This document shows positions 2,647 through 43,569 of a DNA stretch of 43,954 nt, in pieces. This DNA comes from an uncultured delta proteobacterium (lineage in GTDB: Bacteria > Myxococcota_A > Polyangia > Polyangiales > JADJMO01). The notes below the pieces were generated by a model, which saw only the letters and a program-made list of their open reading frames with translations, was not told where the DNA came from and searched no databases. Each line of letters starts with the position of its first letter. Within the stretch, counting starts at the first letter, position 1. The stretch is taken from contig CAIXWQ010000382.1 of assembly GCA_903923175.1 (NCBI GenBank), positions 1 to 43,954 on the forward strand. Direction: 5' to 3'. The translations under genes and the position numbers were made by a program.

Positions 2647-2768
2647 GCTCGAGCCGGGGCGGGCGCGGAGCGGAAGATCCGACCGAGCCCGCGCCCGTCA
2701 CGCCGGAATCGGCGCGATCTCGCGGGATCGGCTTGCCCGCCCACCCCCTCGCGTCTACCCCGCGCGCG

Positions 2769-4721
2769 ATGGCTTCACTCGTCTCGCGCTGGGCCCTCGC
2801 GACGTTGTTCGCGACCTCCGTCGTCTCGCTCGGCTCGGCCGGCTGCAAGCGCCACCGCGTCGTGCGTCTCCACGGCCACGGAAAGGGCGGGCGCATCAAC
2901 GCCGTCGCCTCGGCGAGCGCGGTCGCCTCGCAGCTCGCCAAGCTCCCGACGGCACCGCCCGCGATGGCGCTCGAGGTCTGGATCAAGGATCCGGAGGCGG
3001 TCGCCGAGAAGCTCATCCCGCGCTTCATGAAGCTGCAGGGGGTCCCGGTCCCGCCGACCAAGATGCTCGTGCCGTCGCTCTCGCGGCTGCTGACGAACGG
3101 GCTCCCGCCGGAGAAGGCGCGCAACCTCGAGCAGATCGATACGACGCAGCCCTTCGGCTACATCGTCCTCGACACGCCGCTCGGCACCGCGCCGACGGCC
3201 GACGGCGGCTCGCGCTTCGTGCTCGCGGCGACCGCCAAGGACGCCAAGACCGGCCAGAGCTACGTCGACGACTACGCGAGCCAGGAGGGGGCCACCAAGG
3301 AGAGCTGCGTCCTCGGCGGCGGCCGCCAGATCGCCTGCTACAAGGGGAAGAACACCGGTCGCTACCTCGCCTACCTCGACGGGCGCGTGCTGCTCTCGAC
3401 GGACAAAGAGGCGATCACCGAGTCGGCGCCCCGCGTCGCGGCCGGCATCGAAGCCGCCAAGACGCAGTCGCACCTGATCGTCGCGCGCGCGCCGAAGAGC
3501 TGGATCTACGGGCCGTTCAAGCGCGGCATCGAGTCGGCCTGGGTGAACTGGGTGGGGCCGCAGCTCGGCGGCGCGACGACGGGGCCGGCCAAGGCCTTCT
3601 TCGACGACATCGCGACCTCGGCGCAAGGCACGTTCCCGGGCGTCGGCGACCTCGAGGTCTTCGTCGACGCCACCGACGATCAGGCGAGCGCGACGCTGAC
3701 GCTGCTCGCCGACCCGGGGACGCCGTTCGCGAAGTTCCTCGGCGCCTATCCGACCGAGGCGCCCTCGACGCTGTTGATGGCCCCCCGCGACTCGCTGGCC
3801 GCAGCCTCGTTCCGCTTCCCGCTCCCCTGGCTCGAGCTGATCCGCAAGTTTCTCACCACGCCGCCCCCCGGCGTCGAGATCCCGGCCGATCTCAAGGCCA
3901 AGACCGAGGCGGCCTTCAGCGACTTCCAGGCCGCGCTCACCGGCGACGTGCTCATCGCCAACCTCGCCGATCCCCCCCCCGGCGGCCCCGGCACCAACGT
4001 CATGCGCTTCGGCGTGAAGGACGTCGCGTCGGCCAAGAAGGCCGCCAAGGGGCTGGTCGACTTCCTCATCCCCGACAAGCTCCCGCGCACGCCGATCACG
4101 GGCGACGAAGGCGCGGCCGGTGAGGTCGTCGAGATCCCGATGGAGATCCCGCAGGGGGCGCCGCCGGGCACCAAGCTGCCGCCGATCGGGCTCGGCTGGG
4201 TGGTCAAAGGCAACTTCCTCTACGTCGCGCGGGGCTCGAACCCGAAGGAGCGCGCGCTCGCGTTCGCCAGCGGCAAGGCCGACACCGTGCTCGGCGCCGA
4301 CGCCATGGTGAAGACGCGCATCGGCACGATGCCCGCGAACGCCGCCTTCGCCTCGGTGGTCGCGCCGTTCCGCGCCGACACGCCGATCGCCGCCGCGTTG
4401 AAGCAGCCGCCGCTCCCCGAGGCGATCTCGTTCGCCGTCGAGCCGTCGGCGAACGCGCTCGTCGTGCACGCGAAGTTCGACATCGAGCTGACGTTCGCGG
4501 TCATCGCCCCGATGCTGCTGGCGCCGCCGCGTGGTGCCGGCGGTCCCGGCGGCCCTGGCGGTCAGCCTGGGATGATGCAGCCGGGGATGGGCATGCAGCC
4601 GGGCATGCCGCCGGGGATGATGGGCGGCCCTGCCGGCTCCGCGGTCCCGCCGGTCAACGTCCCCTCGGCCCCGAGCGGCGCCACGCTCGATCTGCCGACG
4701 CGACGCCACACCGACTACTGA
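2769..4721 (+). CDS. Hypothetical lipoprotein with Gly/Pro/Met-rich C-terminus
   Basis: ATG at 2769 inside the longer ORF; lipobox LGSAGCKR; C-terminal GGPGGPGGQPGMMQPGMGMQPGMPPGMMGG. Confidence 0.7.
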   Translation: MASLVSRWALATLFATSVVSLGSAGCKRHRVVRLHGHGKGGRINAVASASAVASQLAKLPTAPPAMALEVWIKDPEAVAEKLIPRFMKLQGVPVPPTKMLVPSLSRLLTNGLPPEKARNLEQIDTTQPFGYIVLDTPLGTAPTADGGSRFVLAATAKDAKTGQSYVDDYASQEGATKESCVLGGGRQIACYKGKNTGRYLAYLDGRVLLSTDKEAITESAPRVAAGIEAAKTQSHLIVARAPKSWIYGPFKRGIESAWVNWVGPQLGGATTGPAKAFFDDIATSAQGTFPGVGDLEVFVDATDDQASATLTLLADPGTPFAKFLGAYPTEAPSTLLMAPRDSLAAASFRFPLPWLELIRKFLTTPPPGVEIPADLKAKTEAAFSDFQAALTGDVLIANLADPPPGGPGTNVMRFGVKDVASAKKAAKGLVDFLIPDKLPRTPITGDEGAAGEVVEIPMEIPQGAPPGTKLPPIGLGWVVKGNFLYVARGSNPKERALAFASGKADTVLGADAMVKTRIGTMPANAAFASVVAPFRADTPIAAALKQPPLPEAISFAVEPSANALVVHAKFDIELTFAVIAPMLLAPPRGAGGPGGPGGQPGMMQPGMGMQPGMPPGMMGGPAGSAVPPVNVPSAPSGATLDLPTRRHTDY

Positions 4722-38236: not shown

Positions 38237-39694
38237 GTGGGCGCGCTCGCGCTGGAAAGGTGGGCGCTCGAGGGCTCTTCCCGGACCCCGGCCGGATCCG
38301 ATACCGTCGGGCATCCCGTGACGTTCGCCCTGGGCCGCCGGCTCCTTCACGCGGGCGTCGTGCAGCCGCACGAGCTGCGCCGCGCCATCTTCGTCGCAGC
38401 GTCGTCCGACGTGCCGTTCGCGCGTGCGCTGGCCGACGCCTCCACGGGCGCCGCGCGCGTGCTCGCGGAGCCGCTCGACGACGGCACCAAGCCGCGGCAG
38501 CGCACGATCCAGGCGGTTCGGGAGCTGGTCGAGAAGCTGCCAGAAGGGCTCTGCGCACGGCTCATGGTGCTGCCCGTCCGCGTCGACCCCCGCACCGGGA
38601 CGGTCGACGTCGCCCTCGTCGACCCGGCGGATCATCACGCCGTCACCGAGCTCGCCTACCACCTCCAGGCGCCGATCCGCCCGGTCGTGACCAGCCTCGA
38701 CGAGATGGAGCGAGCCATCGCCTCGCTCGTCGCGGCGACCCGAGGGCCGCGTCTCCGGCCGTCGCTCCTCCCGCCCCCGGCGCCCGCGTCGGTGGCGCCT
38801 CCGGCCCGCGCCTCCGTGCGCCCGCCTGCGTACGTCGAGGCTCCGCTGGGCGCGGACGACGAAGCGCCGCTCCCGCTCGTTCGTCGGTCGCGCAATTCCT
38901 TGCCGCCCCCGCCGGCAGGCGTGAGCGACGGCGACCGTCGGGACGCCTATCCCCAACGGGAGCGCGAGCCCGTCACCACGCCGTGGAGCCAGCCGCCGCC
39001 CGGCGCCGCCCCGCGCCCCGCGGGCGGCGGATCCGACGGCGCGCGCGAATCGCGGCGCGACACCGCCGACTTCGAGAAGCCGAAGCTCCCGCCCGGCCAC
39101 GCGGCCGCGCAGCCGATGGTGCTCGACTTCTCCAACGCCGCCCGTGAGGCGCGGGACGCCCCTTCGACGCACCGAGGCGCGCCCCCTGCCCCGTCGCGGA
39201 CGGCCATCGCGCCGAAGCTTCCGCCGTACGGCTCGCTCACCCGGGTGCTCGAGTACATCGACGAGGTGGAGACGCGCGACGAGCTGCTCGCCGCCCTGCT
39301 CGAGGGGCTTCGAACGTTCGCGCGCGGCGCCGCGATCCTCGCTGCGCGCCGCGGACGCTTCGTCGGAGTCGCGGCCGAGGGGCTCGAGCTGGAGCGCTTC
39401 CGCACGGCGAACGTCGGTCAGGAGGGAGCCGTCGCGGAGGCGATCGAGCTCGGCGAACGCGTCGGCGTGCTGCGCAGCGCGGCGGACGCGCCGCTCCTCG
39501 CCGCGCTGGAGCTCGCGGGCGCGCCGGCGATCGAGGTCGTGCTCCGACCCGCGTTCGTCGCGGGCCGCCCTGCACTCGTGCTCGCCGCGTTCGGCGTCGG
39601 CGATCTCCAGGAGGGAGCGCGACGCGCGAGGGTGCTCGCGACGGCGGCGGGGGCGACGCTCGAGCGGCTCGTCAAGAACGCGCGCGGCGGCTGA
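38237..39694 (+). CDS. GspE/MshEN N-terminal-like domain protein with GAF-like C-terminus; start uncertain (GTG at 38318 possible)
   Basis: FALGRRLLHAGVVQPHELRRAI...LCARLMVLPVRVDPRTGTVDVALVDPADHHAVTELAYHLQAPIRPVVTSLDEMERAI; Pro-rich linker; no ATPase domain follows. Confidence 0.65.
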   Translation: MGALALERWALEGSSRTPAGSDTVGHPVTFALGRRLLHAGVVQPHELRRAIFVAASSDVPFARALADASTGAARVLAEPLDDGTKPRQRTIQAVRELVEKLPEGLCARLMVLPVRVDPRTGTVDVALVDPADHHAVTELAYHLQAPIRPVVTSLDEMERAIASLVAATRGPRLRPSLLPPPAPASVAPPARASVRPPAYVEAPLGADDEAPLPLVRRSRNSLPPPPAGVSDGDRRDAYPQREREPVTTPWSQPPPGAAPRPAGGGSDGARESRRDTADFEKPKLPPGHAAAQPMVLDFSNAAREARDAPSTHRGAPPAPSRTAIAPKLPPYGSLTRVLEYIDEVETRDELLAALLEGLRTFARGAAILAARRGRFVGVAAEGLELERFRTANVGQEGAVAEAIELGERVGVLRSAADAPLLAALELAGAPAIEVVLRPAFVAGRPALVLAAFGVGDLQEGARRARVLATAAGATLERLVKNARGG

Positions 39695-39709: not shown

Positions 39710-40015
39710 TCACATGCCGCGCTTGGCCTTCGAGAGATCGACCTGGTCGAGCGCCATCCGGATGAGCGCGCTGCGGTTCGCCTTGGTGAACCCGCGTTCC
39801 TTGAGCTGCTCGACCATCCCGTCGAGGCGCGAGAGGTCGTCGGTGTACATCGAGATGCAGATCACCTTGTAATGCGAGGGCTTCTGCGGAGCGTCGACCC
39901 CGCCGGGGAGCGACCGCAACCGCGGACGTTCCCCGCGTGCGTAGAACGTCCCCGAGAGGACCTCCCGCACCTCTTCACCCTCGAACAGCTCGTTCGTCGC
40001 GCGTCGCATCGTCAT
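39710..40015 (-). CDS. Small ribbon-helix-helix-like protein adjacent to parA
   Basis: HYKVICISMYTDDLSRLDGMVEQLKERGFTKANRSALIRMALDQVDL: short strand followed by two helices. Confidence 0.65.
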   Translation of the reverse strand: MTMRRATNELFEGEEVREVLSGTFYARGERPRLRSLPGGVDAPQKPSHYKVICISMYTDDLSRLDGMVEQLKERGFTKANRSALIRMALDQVDLSKAKRGM

Positions 40016-40032
40016 GGCTCTCTCCAGCTCCG

Positions 40033-40053
40033 GCGCGCGCGCAGCGCGCGTGC
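40033..40053. other. GC-rich hairpin between parA-like and RHH-like genes
   Basis: gcgcgcgcg-cag-cgcgcgtgc, 9-bp stem with one G-U pair. Confidence 0.5.
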
Positions 40054-40056
40054 AAC

Positions 40057-41361
40057 TCAACCCGCAAGCGCCTCGGCCACGCGCGCCTTGCTGGCAGACG
40101 CGCCCCTCATCTCCGCGACGTCCGTCGCGTCGCCGGCATCCCCGGAGACGCCCGAGACGCCCGGCTCCACGCCGCGCCACAGCTGCTCGACCACCGCGTC
40201 GTAGTCGCGCGCGGCGTTCGAGTCCTCGGCCCACTCGAAGATCGTCTTCGCGTACGCGGGTGCTTCCTTGATCTTCGCGGTCGCGCGGATCGGCGTCAGG
40301 CAGCGCGGCCCGAAGTGCTCCCGCAGCGTCGCCAGCGAGTCCTGGCAGATCTTCGCGCGCGCGTCGTACATCGTCGGGATCACGCCCGCGATGCGCACCG
40401 GGTGGTGCAGCAGCTGGTTGACGTTCTTCACCGTCTTGAGCACCTGCCGCACGCCGACGAGCGACAGGTAGTCGCAGGCGACCGGCACCAGGATCGCGTC
40501 GGCGAACACCAGCGCGTTCTGGTTCATCAGCGAGAGCGAGGGGCTGCAGTCGAGGATCACGACGTCGTAGCTCTGCGAGGTCGACGCGAGCCGGTCGCGC
40601 AGCACGCGGTCGCGCTCACGGCGTCCCGCCAGGTAGAGCTCCGCGGCGGCCAGCGTCTCGTTGCTCGCGAGCACGTCGAGGTTGGTGCGCACCGGCACGG
40701 CCACGGCGGTCGGCGCGAGGCCCATCACCAGCACGTGGTAGAGCGACTTCTCGACCTTCATCCCGAGCGAGGCGGCGACGTTCCCCTGCGCGTCCGTGTC
40801 GACGAGCAGCACGCGCTTGCCCCGCGCCGCGAGCGCGGCGGCGAGGCTGACGGCGGTCGTGGTCTTGCCCGTGCCGCCTTTGTGGTTGAACACGGCGATG
40901 CGACGCGGGATGCGGTCCTCGCTGGGCCGCGCGCGTCGATCGACCGGCTTCACGGCGACCGGCGCGGAGGCGGGCTCGCGCTCGGAGTCGACCGACTCGG
41001 GCGCCTCGGACGCGCCCGTCGCTCCGGCGGTGAGCCGCGTCACGCTCGCCATCGGCGGCGGGACGTACGCGTCGATGAGTCGTGCCCCCTGGGACTCGGC
41101 GAGGATCTGCTCGCGGCACGCAGACGCGCAGGCGTACTTGCGCGTCCCCTTCACGGCGACGACCTGGGAGACGAGCTCGACGTCGAAGCGCTTGCCGCAG
41201 CCGTCGCATGTGACGGTGTCACCGCTCTGGGTCTTGCCCGCTTCCTGGCAGGGACGGGAGCAGTAGAAGGCGAAGCCGCCGTCACGCTCTTGCATCTGCC
41301 AGCGGAGCTGGACCTCGAACGACTTTTTGCAAACGGTGCAGGACTCGGTCATCGCGGCCAT
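40057..41361 (-). CDS. ParA-family ATPase with two N-terminal Cys4 zinc-ribbon-like modules
   Basis: Deviant Walker A FNHKGGTGKTTTAVSLAAALA; LLVDTDAQGNVAASLG; VVILDCSPSLSLMNQNAL. N-terminal CTVC...CSRPC and CDGC...CASAC. Confidence 0.92.
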   Translation of the reverse strand: MAAMTESCTVCKKSFEVQLRWQMQERDGGFAFYCSRPCQEAGKTQSGDTVTCDGCGKRFDVELVSQVVAVKGTRKYACASACREQILAESQGARLIDAYVPPPMASVTRLTAGATGASEAPESVDSEREPASAPVAVKPVDRRARPSEDRIPRRIAVFNHKGGTGKTTTAVSLAAALAARGKRVLLVDTDAQGNVAASLGMKVEKSLYHVLVMGLAPTAVAVPVRTNLDVLASNETLAAAELYLAGRRERDRVLRDRLASTSQSYDVVILDCSPSLSLMNQNALVFADAILVPVACDYLSLVGVRQVLKTVKNVNQLLHHPVRIAGVIPTMYDARAKICQDSLATLREHFGPRCLTPIRATAKIKEAPAYAKTIFEWAEDSNAARDYDAVVEQLWRGVEPGVSGVSGDAGDATDVAEMRGASASKARVAEALAG

Positions 41362-41402: not shown

Positions 41403-41611
41403 ACCCGCGGTGAGTGACGCCGCCTCGGCGATGCGCGTTCGCCTCGGGGCGGGATGGTCGGTACCGGGGTCGGGACCCATCGGCCAAAAAAGTGACGGCG
41501 CCCCCCCTCGGCGCAGGGAATGCGTCGCGCTGGTGGCGGGTTTCGGCGTCGCGTCCGCGTCGATCCCGCGTCTCCGACGGGCGATCGGCCCGGGAACTAC
41601 GGAGAATCCCG

Positions 41612-41669: not shown

Positions 41670-41686
41670 CGTGTGCGTCGCACACG
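41670..41686. other. Inverted repeat in the ABC transporter leader
   Basis: CGTGTGCG-T-CGCACACG. Confidence 0.5.
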
Positions 41687-41801
41687 CGCGAGGAGTCCCA
41701 CCAGGACCCCTTCCCCAACCCGGCAGGCCAGCGCGGCAACTCGACACGACGCACGCCGGACTGACCGACGAAATCACGAATCCCCAGGAGAACGGCCGAG
41801 C

Positions 41802-42818
41802 ATGGCGACCGATGTGATGATTCACACGAAGGACCTGACGAAGCGCTACGACAACTTCGTCGCGGTCGATCGCATCTCCTTCGACGTCCACCGCGGCGAG
41901 GTCGTCGGCTTTCTCGGGCCCAACGGCGCCGGCAAGTCGACCACGATGCGCATCCTCACCTGCTTCATCTCGGCGACCGATGGCGTCGCGAAGGTGAGCG
42001 GGTTCGATTGCTTCGACGAGCCGCTCGAGGTTCGCCGCGTGCTCGGCTACCTCCCGCAGCGCGCGCCGCTCTACCCCGAGATGACGGTGCACGAGTACCT
42101 GGACTTCTGCGCCGATCTTCGCCAGCTGCCGAGCGGTGACTCGCGCAAGAAGGCCGTTCGCCGCGTCGTCGAGGTCTGCGGGCTCAACTCCTTCTACCAG
42201 AAGGAGATCCGCTCGCTCTCGCACGGTCAGCGTCAGCGCGTCGGCCTCGGCCAGGCGCTGCTGCACGATCCGCCCGTCATGATCCTCGACGAGCCGACCG
42301 CCGACCTCGATCCGAACGAGAAGCGCGAGTTCCTCACGTACCTGCGCGACATCGGCTCGAGCCGCACGGTCATCATCTCGACCCACAACATCTCCGAGGT
42401 CGAGTTCGCCTGCAGCCGCACGCTCATCATCGCGAACCGCGAGGGCAAGGGCGGCCGCGTCGTCGCCGACGGCCCCGTCGAGTCGATCCGCGCGCAGGGC
42501 GGCACCGTCCGCTACCAGGTCGGCGTCGGCGCCGGCGAGTCGGGCAAGCTGCCTGGCGCGCGCGAGCTGCGGAACGCGCTCGCCGAGCTCAAGGGCGCCG
42601 ACAGCGTCACCGAGATCGGCTCGGCGGACGACAAGAGCGTGAAGGTGCAGATCGTCGGCGCGAAGGACGCGGATCTCCGCGCCGAGCTCCGCCGCGCCGT
42701 CTCGGACAAGTCGTGGGAGCTGCTCGAGCTACGTCGCGAGCTCCCTCCGCTCGAGGACGTCTTCCGCGAGCTCACGCTCGCCGAAGACCGGCGCGATCGC
42801 CTCGCCGCCGCCGAGTGA
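41802..42818 (+). CDS. ABC transporter ATP-binding protein (GldA-like)
   Basis: GFLGPNGAGKSTTMRILTCFISATDG; LGYLPQRAPLYPEMTVHEYLDFCA; SLSHGQRQRVGLGQALLHDPPVMILDEPTADLDP; IISTHNISEVE. Confidence 0.93.
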   Translation: MATDVMIHTKDLTKRYDNFVAVDRISFDVHRGEVVGFLGPNGAGKSTTMRILTCFISATDGVAKVSGFDCFDEPLEVRRVLGYLPQRAPLYPEMTVHEYLDFCADLRQLPSGDSRKKAVRRVVEVCGLNSFYQKEIRSLSHGQRQRVGLGQALLHDPPVMILDEPTADLDPNEKREFLTYLRDIGSSRTVIISTHNISEVEFACSRTLIIANREGKGGRVVADGPVESIRAQGGTVRYQVGVGAGESGKLPGARELRNALAELKGADSVTEIGSADDKSVKVQIVGAKDADLRAELRRAVSDKSWELLELRRELPPLEDVFRELTLAEDRRDRLAAAE

Positions 42819-42855
42819 TTCTCCGCTTTCATTTCGCACACTTCAGGCACGATCC

Positions 42856-43569
42856 ATGAACAGCACTCTGACCATCACGCGTCGCGAGTTCCGCTCGAAC
42901 TTCGATAGCCCCATCGCGTACGTCGTCATCGCGCTCAGCCTGCTCTTCGTCGGCTGGCTCTTCTTCAGCCAGTTCTGGACGATCAACCGCGCGACCGTCG
43001 GCCCGCTCTTCTATTACCTGCCGTGGGCGTTCGTGTTCCCGATCATCCCGGCGGTCACGATGCGCCTCTTCGCCGAAGAGAAGCGCACCGGCACCATCGA
43101 GCTCCTGATCACGATGCCGGTCCGCGACCGCGACGTCGTGCTCGGGAAGTTCCTGGCGACGCTCGCGCTCATCGCGGTGCTGCTCGTCCTCTCGTTGACG
43201 TTCCCGTACACGATCTCGCGGATCGGCAACCTCGACTGGGGCCCCGTGTGGGTCGGCTACGTCGGACTGCTCCTCGAGGCCTCCGCCGCGATCTCGATCG
43301 GGCTCTTTTTCTCGAGCCTCACCGAGAACCAGATCGTCGCGTTCTTCCTGACGCTCTGCTCGCTGTTCGCGCTCTGGGCCGTCGGGTTCCTCAGCAGCGA
43401 CACCAACGGCGTGCTCGGGAACATCATCTCGTTCGTGAGCTTCGAGCGCCGGCTCTCGCCGTTCTCGCGGGGGCTCTTCGACTTCCGCAACGCGATCTAC
43501 TTCCTGTCGGTGACCGCCTTCTTCCTGCTCGCCACCACGCGCTCGCTCGAGAGCCGCAAGTGGAAGTGA
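42856..43569 (+). CDS. ABC-2 type transporter permease (GldF-like)
   Basis: ITRREFRSNFDSPIAYVVIALSLLFVGWLFF; PAVTMRLFAEEKRTGTIELLITMPVRDRDVVLGKFLATL. Confidence 0.92.
   Translation: MNSTLTITRREFRSNFDSPIAYVVIALSLLFVGWLFFSQFWTINRATVGPLFYYLPWAFVFPIIPAVTMRLFAEEKRTGTIELLITMPVRDRDVVLGKFLATLALIAVLLVLSLTFPYTISRIGNLDWGPVWVGYVGLLLEASAAISIGLFFSSLTENQIVAFFLTLCSLFALWAVGFLSSDTNGVLGNIISFVSFERRLSPFSRGLFDFRNAIYFLSVTAFFLLATTRSLESRKWK

Follow-up and report, generated by a model that had tools for sequence, protein, structure and literature searches.

The window, the whole 43,954-nucleotide stretch of DNA from an uncultured delta proteobacterium that was analysed here, carries two genes in tandem on the minus strand. 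The first encodes a 434-aa ParA-family ATPase with N-terminal tandem zinc fingers (ZnF-ParA; 40057..41361), recognised from its sequence, an ortholog alignment and a structural model, and the second encodes a 101-aa partner with an RHH-like domain (39710..40015). The ZnF-ParA gene starts with an ATG at 41361, has a second in-frame ATG at 41352, and ends with its stop codon at 40057. The partner gene begins 41 bp further downstream with an ATG at 40015, and the last base of its stop codon is 39710. A GGAGA-like ribosome-binding site precedes each of the two starts. A preliminary description of this DNA had placed the ParA gene and the 101-aa gene correctly. Convergent with the pair is a gene for a 485-aa MshEN-domain protein (38237-39694, plus strand); cyclic di-GMP is a frequent ligand of MshEN domains. 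Divergent ABC transporter ATPase and permease genes (41673-43569, plus strand) adjoin the pair in the closest relatives only.

Zinc-finger modules and ATPase body of ZnF-ParA

The N-terminus of ZnF-ParA consists of two Cys4 modules with identical C-x2-C-x22-C-x3-C spacing, forming a 44-residue repeat. The first module covers residues 1-43 (C8-x2-C11-x22-C34-x3-C38; 41233..41361, minus strand) and is modelled at a pLDDT of about 90, and the second covers residues 47-90 (C52-x2-C55-x22-C78-x3-C82; 41092..41223, minus strand). All eight cysteines, along with F15, Q22, F59 and Q66, are invariant in an alignment of 31 orthologs from the same taxonomic order, and the modules are therefore not a product of chance. 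Duplicated Cys4 modules had been noted in the preliminary description with a spacing that was approximate, under the label of zinc ribbons. The Cys4 zinc-finger signature stands, and the label is slightly off: Pfam zf-FCS (MYM-type) was matched in 23 of the 31 orthologs (best 8.6e-7), and the predicted structure contains two compact modules, each of two hairpins and a helix (pLDDT about 86-94). A CxxC...CxxxC arrangement with the FCS signature and a predicted treble-clef fold match zf-FCS (MYM-type) fingers rather than classic zinc ribbons, as judged from Pfam and the model, and the modules would be expected to bind zinc. Some orthologs from other orders and classes have a single module (loci L157-L168, L170 and L175), which indicates that one finger suffices; either a duplication produced the tandem form or a module was lost to give the single one. 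No description of zf-FCS/MYM-type fingers fused to a ParA ATPase was found in the open-access literature.

The fingers are followed by a low-complexity linker (residues 97-146; 40924..41073, minus strand) that is predicted to be disordered (pLDDT below 50) and differs widely in length among orthologs. The Soj-type ATPase domain occupies approximately residues 153-400 (40162..40905, minus strand), with a deviant Walker A motif (KGGTGKTT), DTDAQGN, and conserved basic residues at Soj DNA-binding positions. The features of the Soj branch of ParA/MinD proteins, namely the deviant Walker A KGGxGKT/S with its signature lysine and the DxDxQGN motif, are intact, and K161, K166, D188, D190, Q192 and N194 are invariant in the 31 orthologs. 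The nearest solved relatives of this Soj-like body are T. thermophilus Soj and 8RAY, the ParA structure named in a paper on M. xanthus ParA (PMC12462528), and the latter was also ranked high by foldseek. In an alignment to T. thermophilus Soj, the arginine of the Soj DGRT motif fell on the invariant R335 and that of NVRLAEAP (NVR) on a conserved K/R. We take these two arginines to be the DNA-binding arginines of Soj, and at the level of aligned residues ZnF-ParA has the basic side chains for non-specific DNA binding. Structural matches of the ATPase found by foldseek also include FleN, McdA and the delta protein. Phage matches to the ATPase span the generic ATPase domain only.

The RHH-like partner and the upstream DNA

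The partner has a hydrophobic N-terminal motif (EEVREVLSGTFY), a basic linker, and an RHH-like C-terminal domain at about residues 48-95. Its model has helices at residues 58-73 and 81-91 with a pLDDT mostly above 90 (blocks 61-100 average 90-97), preceded by an extended segment at the expected place of the dimer strand. Weak Pfam RHH_1 matches occur in 17 of the 31 orthologs, the best with E 0.006; no member passed the curated threshold, and the window's own protein alone had no Pfam match. Because a profile search of the PDB by sequence returned nothing significant (no RHH chain reached E 1) and foldseek with the lone monomer gave no significant match, the RHH fold is likely, not proven, with the helix-helix part predicted at high confidence. 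The name RHH-like, and the fold prediction on which the preliminary description had staked its proposal, agree with the modelled helices and the weak RHH_1 matches.

The conserved pattern of the partner reads HYKVICISxYxxDLxxLDxxVxxLKxxGxxxxxRSxLIRxAL, and a helix-B motif, (N/S)-R/K-S-x-x-I/L-R, is kept in its orthologs. At the usual DNA-facing strand positions stand V51, C53 and S55, which are not the typical basic or polar residues. These unusual residues, together with McdA among the structural matches of the ATPase, would suit an RHH-like adaptor that links ZnF-ParA to a protein complex, as McdB and PomX do, with the fingers helping to capture the cargo; the cargo positioned by orphan ParAs of the chromosome is often a protein (PMC10241942, PMC9178275). 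We consider such protein positioning unlikely, since the helix-B motif resembles that of DNA-binding RHH proteins and no cargo operon adjoins the pair across lineages, whereas ParA-type positioning genes usually adjoin the genes of their cargo (PMC10241942).

The N-terminal tail carries the motif DEVxxVLxxxFY (D/E-V-x2-V-L-x3-F-Y) in 106 of 110 order-level orthologs, and more distant partners mostly have similar hydrophobic motifs instead, such as DPLxxxDxILxxxFY or VEEFF. The linker has a median net charge of +2 (67 members). This order, a disordered N-terminus and then the RHH domain, is that of ParG and SegB. In M. xanthus, the contact of ParB with ParA is made mainly by the hydrophobic residues in an N-terminal motif that also has a single basic residue (PMC12462528). 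The partner tail is similar in kind, with no invariant basic residue of the ParB R13 type, and by analogy it may contact ParA.

Domains resembling the partner RHH also occur in viruses. A gene at 2755-3180 of viral contig IMGVR_UViG_3300031712_000068 (L200) encodes a C-terminal domain with 61% resemblance over 44 aa, and viral contigs L201 and L202 encode similar C-terminal domains at 38%. The genes in L200 and L202 have no adjoining ParA. Such viral proteins possibly act as regulators for the phage or imitate the host partner.

Of 90 non-redundant upstream regions of ZnF-parA at the level of the order, 67 contain an A/T tract and then TTGRCC, where shuffled sequences gave a mean of 0.85. In the window, this promoter-like element, kept in order-level orthologs, is a T-tract followed by TTGGCC at approximately 41480..41496 (minus strand). 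Distant classes have ordinary TTGACA/TATAAG-like sequences upstream of the gene. The element may serve as promoter, as operator, or in both roles. Genome-wide scanning with a strict two-part promoter pattern gave no match, and a looser pattern showed modest enrichment with no evident clustering. No centromere-like repeat array was identified; upstream, the TTGRCC element was the only candidate found. GTTGACC-N22-GGTCAAC was seen by eye in one Sorangium strain; inverted repeats around TTGACC in Sorangium were rejected as a general RHH operator because they are not general.

RHH folds are mostly those of transcription factors. The partner could accordingly be a transcription factor, perhaps of a cell-cycle or envelope regulon, placed under ATP-dependent control by ZnF-ParA in the way that FleN controls FleQ, with nothing being moved. 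The conserved element upstream of the operon, the phage-encoded RHH-domain relatives that lack a neighboring ParA, and FleN among the structural matches of the ATPase all fit such a regulatory pair. We nevertheless find it rather doubtful: the ATPase is closest to the nucleoid-binding Soj and keeps basic DNA-contact residues that a pure regulator would not need, and the upstream element could be merely a promoter.

Conservation, ancestry and genomic setting of the pair

When 38 relatives were searched separately with each protein, strong matches to ZnF-ParA and to the RHH partner occurred in the same 31 genomes, and both were absent from the same 7. In every one of the 140 loci holding both genes, the partner lies directly downstream of ZnF-ParA on its strand, and 31 of these loci belong to other orders and classes. 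The partner served as query in retrieving most of the loci, and some genomes are counted twice. The preliminary description had made its proposal depend on the two genes being neighbors in relatives, and they adjoin in every relative examined. Among 379 genomes of the phylum that were searched, 95 carry a single copy of the partner gene, with Sorangium cellulosum, Polyangium, Minicystis rosea and Labilithrix among the named carriers. Many Myxococcota soil bacteria carry these genes besides their normal chromosome-partition genes. In a tree, all ZnF-ParAs fall into a single clade that excludes the chromosomal Soj proteins of the same genomes (SH-aLRT 100), and they group mostly by family within it, and plasmid collections contained no match to the RHH partner or the finger domain. 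ZnF-ParA and its RHH partner are a stable, obligate unit that is chromosomal and vertically inherited. This two-gene module is apparently undescribed, as no description of the architecture was found in the open-access literature.

ParA followed by an RHH protein is a typical plasmid architecture, and the pair might be seen as a type Ib partition system that a plasmid or integrated element left behind on the chromosome, now either neutral or serving only as an incompatibility factor. This origin is strongly disfavoured and, in our judgment, very improbable, given the single copy across the phylum-wide set, the invariant catalytic and cysteine residues, a tree that mostly follows families, and the lack of both plasmid homologs and mobile genes conserved alongside.

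Besides the two genes themselves, no gene family adjoins in more than 12 of 62 loci and nothing is conserved phylum-wide. Assigning a cargo by neighborhood was rejected, as no cargo gene is conserved beside the pair. The Polyangiaceae share the block parA-parB / tig-clpP-clpX-lon-purH-ZnF-parA-RHH (loci L192-L199), which is housekeeping synteny of one family and names no cargo. The distance from the pair to the canonical parB is about 12-16 kb in Polyangiaceae and 88 kb in another family; this proximity is suggestive, but it may be inherited synteny. In all loci the gene adjacent to ZnF-parA encodes the RHH-like partner and parB lies elsewhere, which differs from the adjacent ParB of ParABS systems. 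The statement in the preliminary description that no ParB is present holds within the window and not for the source genome, which has an ordinary parB on another contig. Location of the pair at the replication origin was also rejected, with dnaA far from both the pair and parB in complete genomes. In So ce26, So0157-2, So ceGT47, Minicystis and three further genomes (G354, G015 and G030), a distance of about 0.1-1.4 Mb separates dnaA from perfect parS palindromes, and in the same set the canonical parB is several Mb from both parS and dnaA. It is unusual for parAB to lie apart from parS and the origin, as it does in those genomes.

Possible function and relation to known systems

Positioning in bacteria is mainly the work of ParA ATPases, and it is the partner protein that determines the cargo. 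Given that a small protein predicted to bind DNA is invariably encoded right after this ParA motor ATPase, the pair probably positions or organises some DNA, and DNA is the cargo we favour. We give a probability of about 0.45 to the reading that ZnF-ParA and its partner are a ParA-RHH module apart from the ParABS system of the same cell, which most likely moves, anchors or organises DNA like SegA-SegB and ParF-ParG. ATP-bound ZnF-ParA dimers would coat the nucleoid non-specifically, and the RHH protein would dimerise and bind specific DNA sites. The hydrophobic motif in its flexible N-terminus would contact ParA and trigger ATP hydrolysis, so that RHH-bound DNA is tethered and drawn along the ParA gradient. 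On their flexible linker, the paired zinc fingers could act as an extra interaction module, giving ZnF-ParA a second point of contact with either DNA or a partner protein. The preliminary description had spoken of a possible positioning system; the pair is real and its genes are neighbors everywhere, but positioning is a property carried over from the ParA family, with no cargo gene conserved alongside. A more far-reaching proposal, which we offer only tentatively, is that Myxococcota have a second machine for chromosome segregation or organisation, a bacterial analogue of archaeal SegAB, in which ZnF-ParA as the motor and an RHH protein that marks sites scattered over the chromosome work beside ParABS in very large genomes. 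An obligate and widespread pair with an unusual zinc-finger extension and no cargo gene alongside, occurring beside ParABS in genomes that reach 16 Mb, points to a spatial task not yet studied.

The likeness to ParA/ParG-type pairs drawn in the preliminary description is apt, and the pair is distinct from ordinary ParABS. Soj/Spo0J, encoded in the same genomes and, in Polyangiaceae, at a distance of about 12 kb, shares the Soj-type ATPase and its catalytic residues, whereas ZnF-ParA falls in a separate clade, has a partner that is not ParB and carries additional zinc fingers. The Cys spacing and FCS signature of these fingers are shared with zf-FCS/MYM-type and TRASH fingers, and they stand, together with the flexible linker, where type Ia plasmid ParAs have an N-terminal helix-turn-helix domain. 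McdAB, PomXYZ and PpfA-TlpT likewise combine a chromosomal ParA with a dedicated partner, but their partners are not RHH proteins and, unlike ZnF-ParA, such ParAs usually adjoin cargo genes. The type Ib plasmid systems ParF-ParG and delta-omega consist of a ParA followed by a small protein with a disordered N-terminus and an RHH domain, and the delta protein is itself among the structural matches of the ATPase. They differ in that the present pair is chromosomal and vertically inherited, has no centromere array that could be found, and has a 434-aa ATPase with a Soj-like body and a 150-residue finger extension in place of a short ATPase with no N-terminal domain. The directly downstream partner (140/140) is the arrangement of both type Ib systems and SegAB, with the RHH_1 match being weak (17/31). 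SegA has no reported zinc fingers, and SegB has known palindromic sites upstream of segAB, where the present pair has only the TTGRCC promoter-like element. As described, SegA-SegB of Sulfolobales is similarly a cassette of two chromosomal genes, one for a ParA ATPase and one for a DNA-binding RHH protein, that stands apart from bacterial ParB (PMC12284271, PMC9178275).
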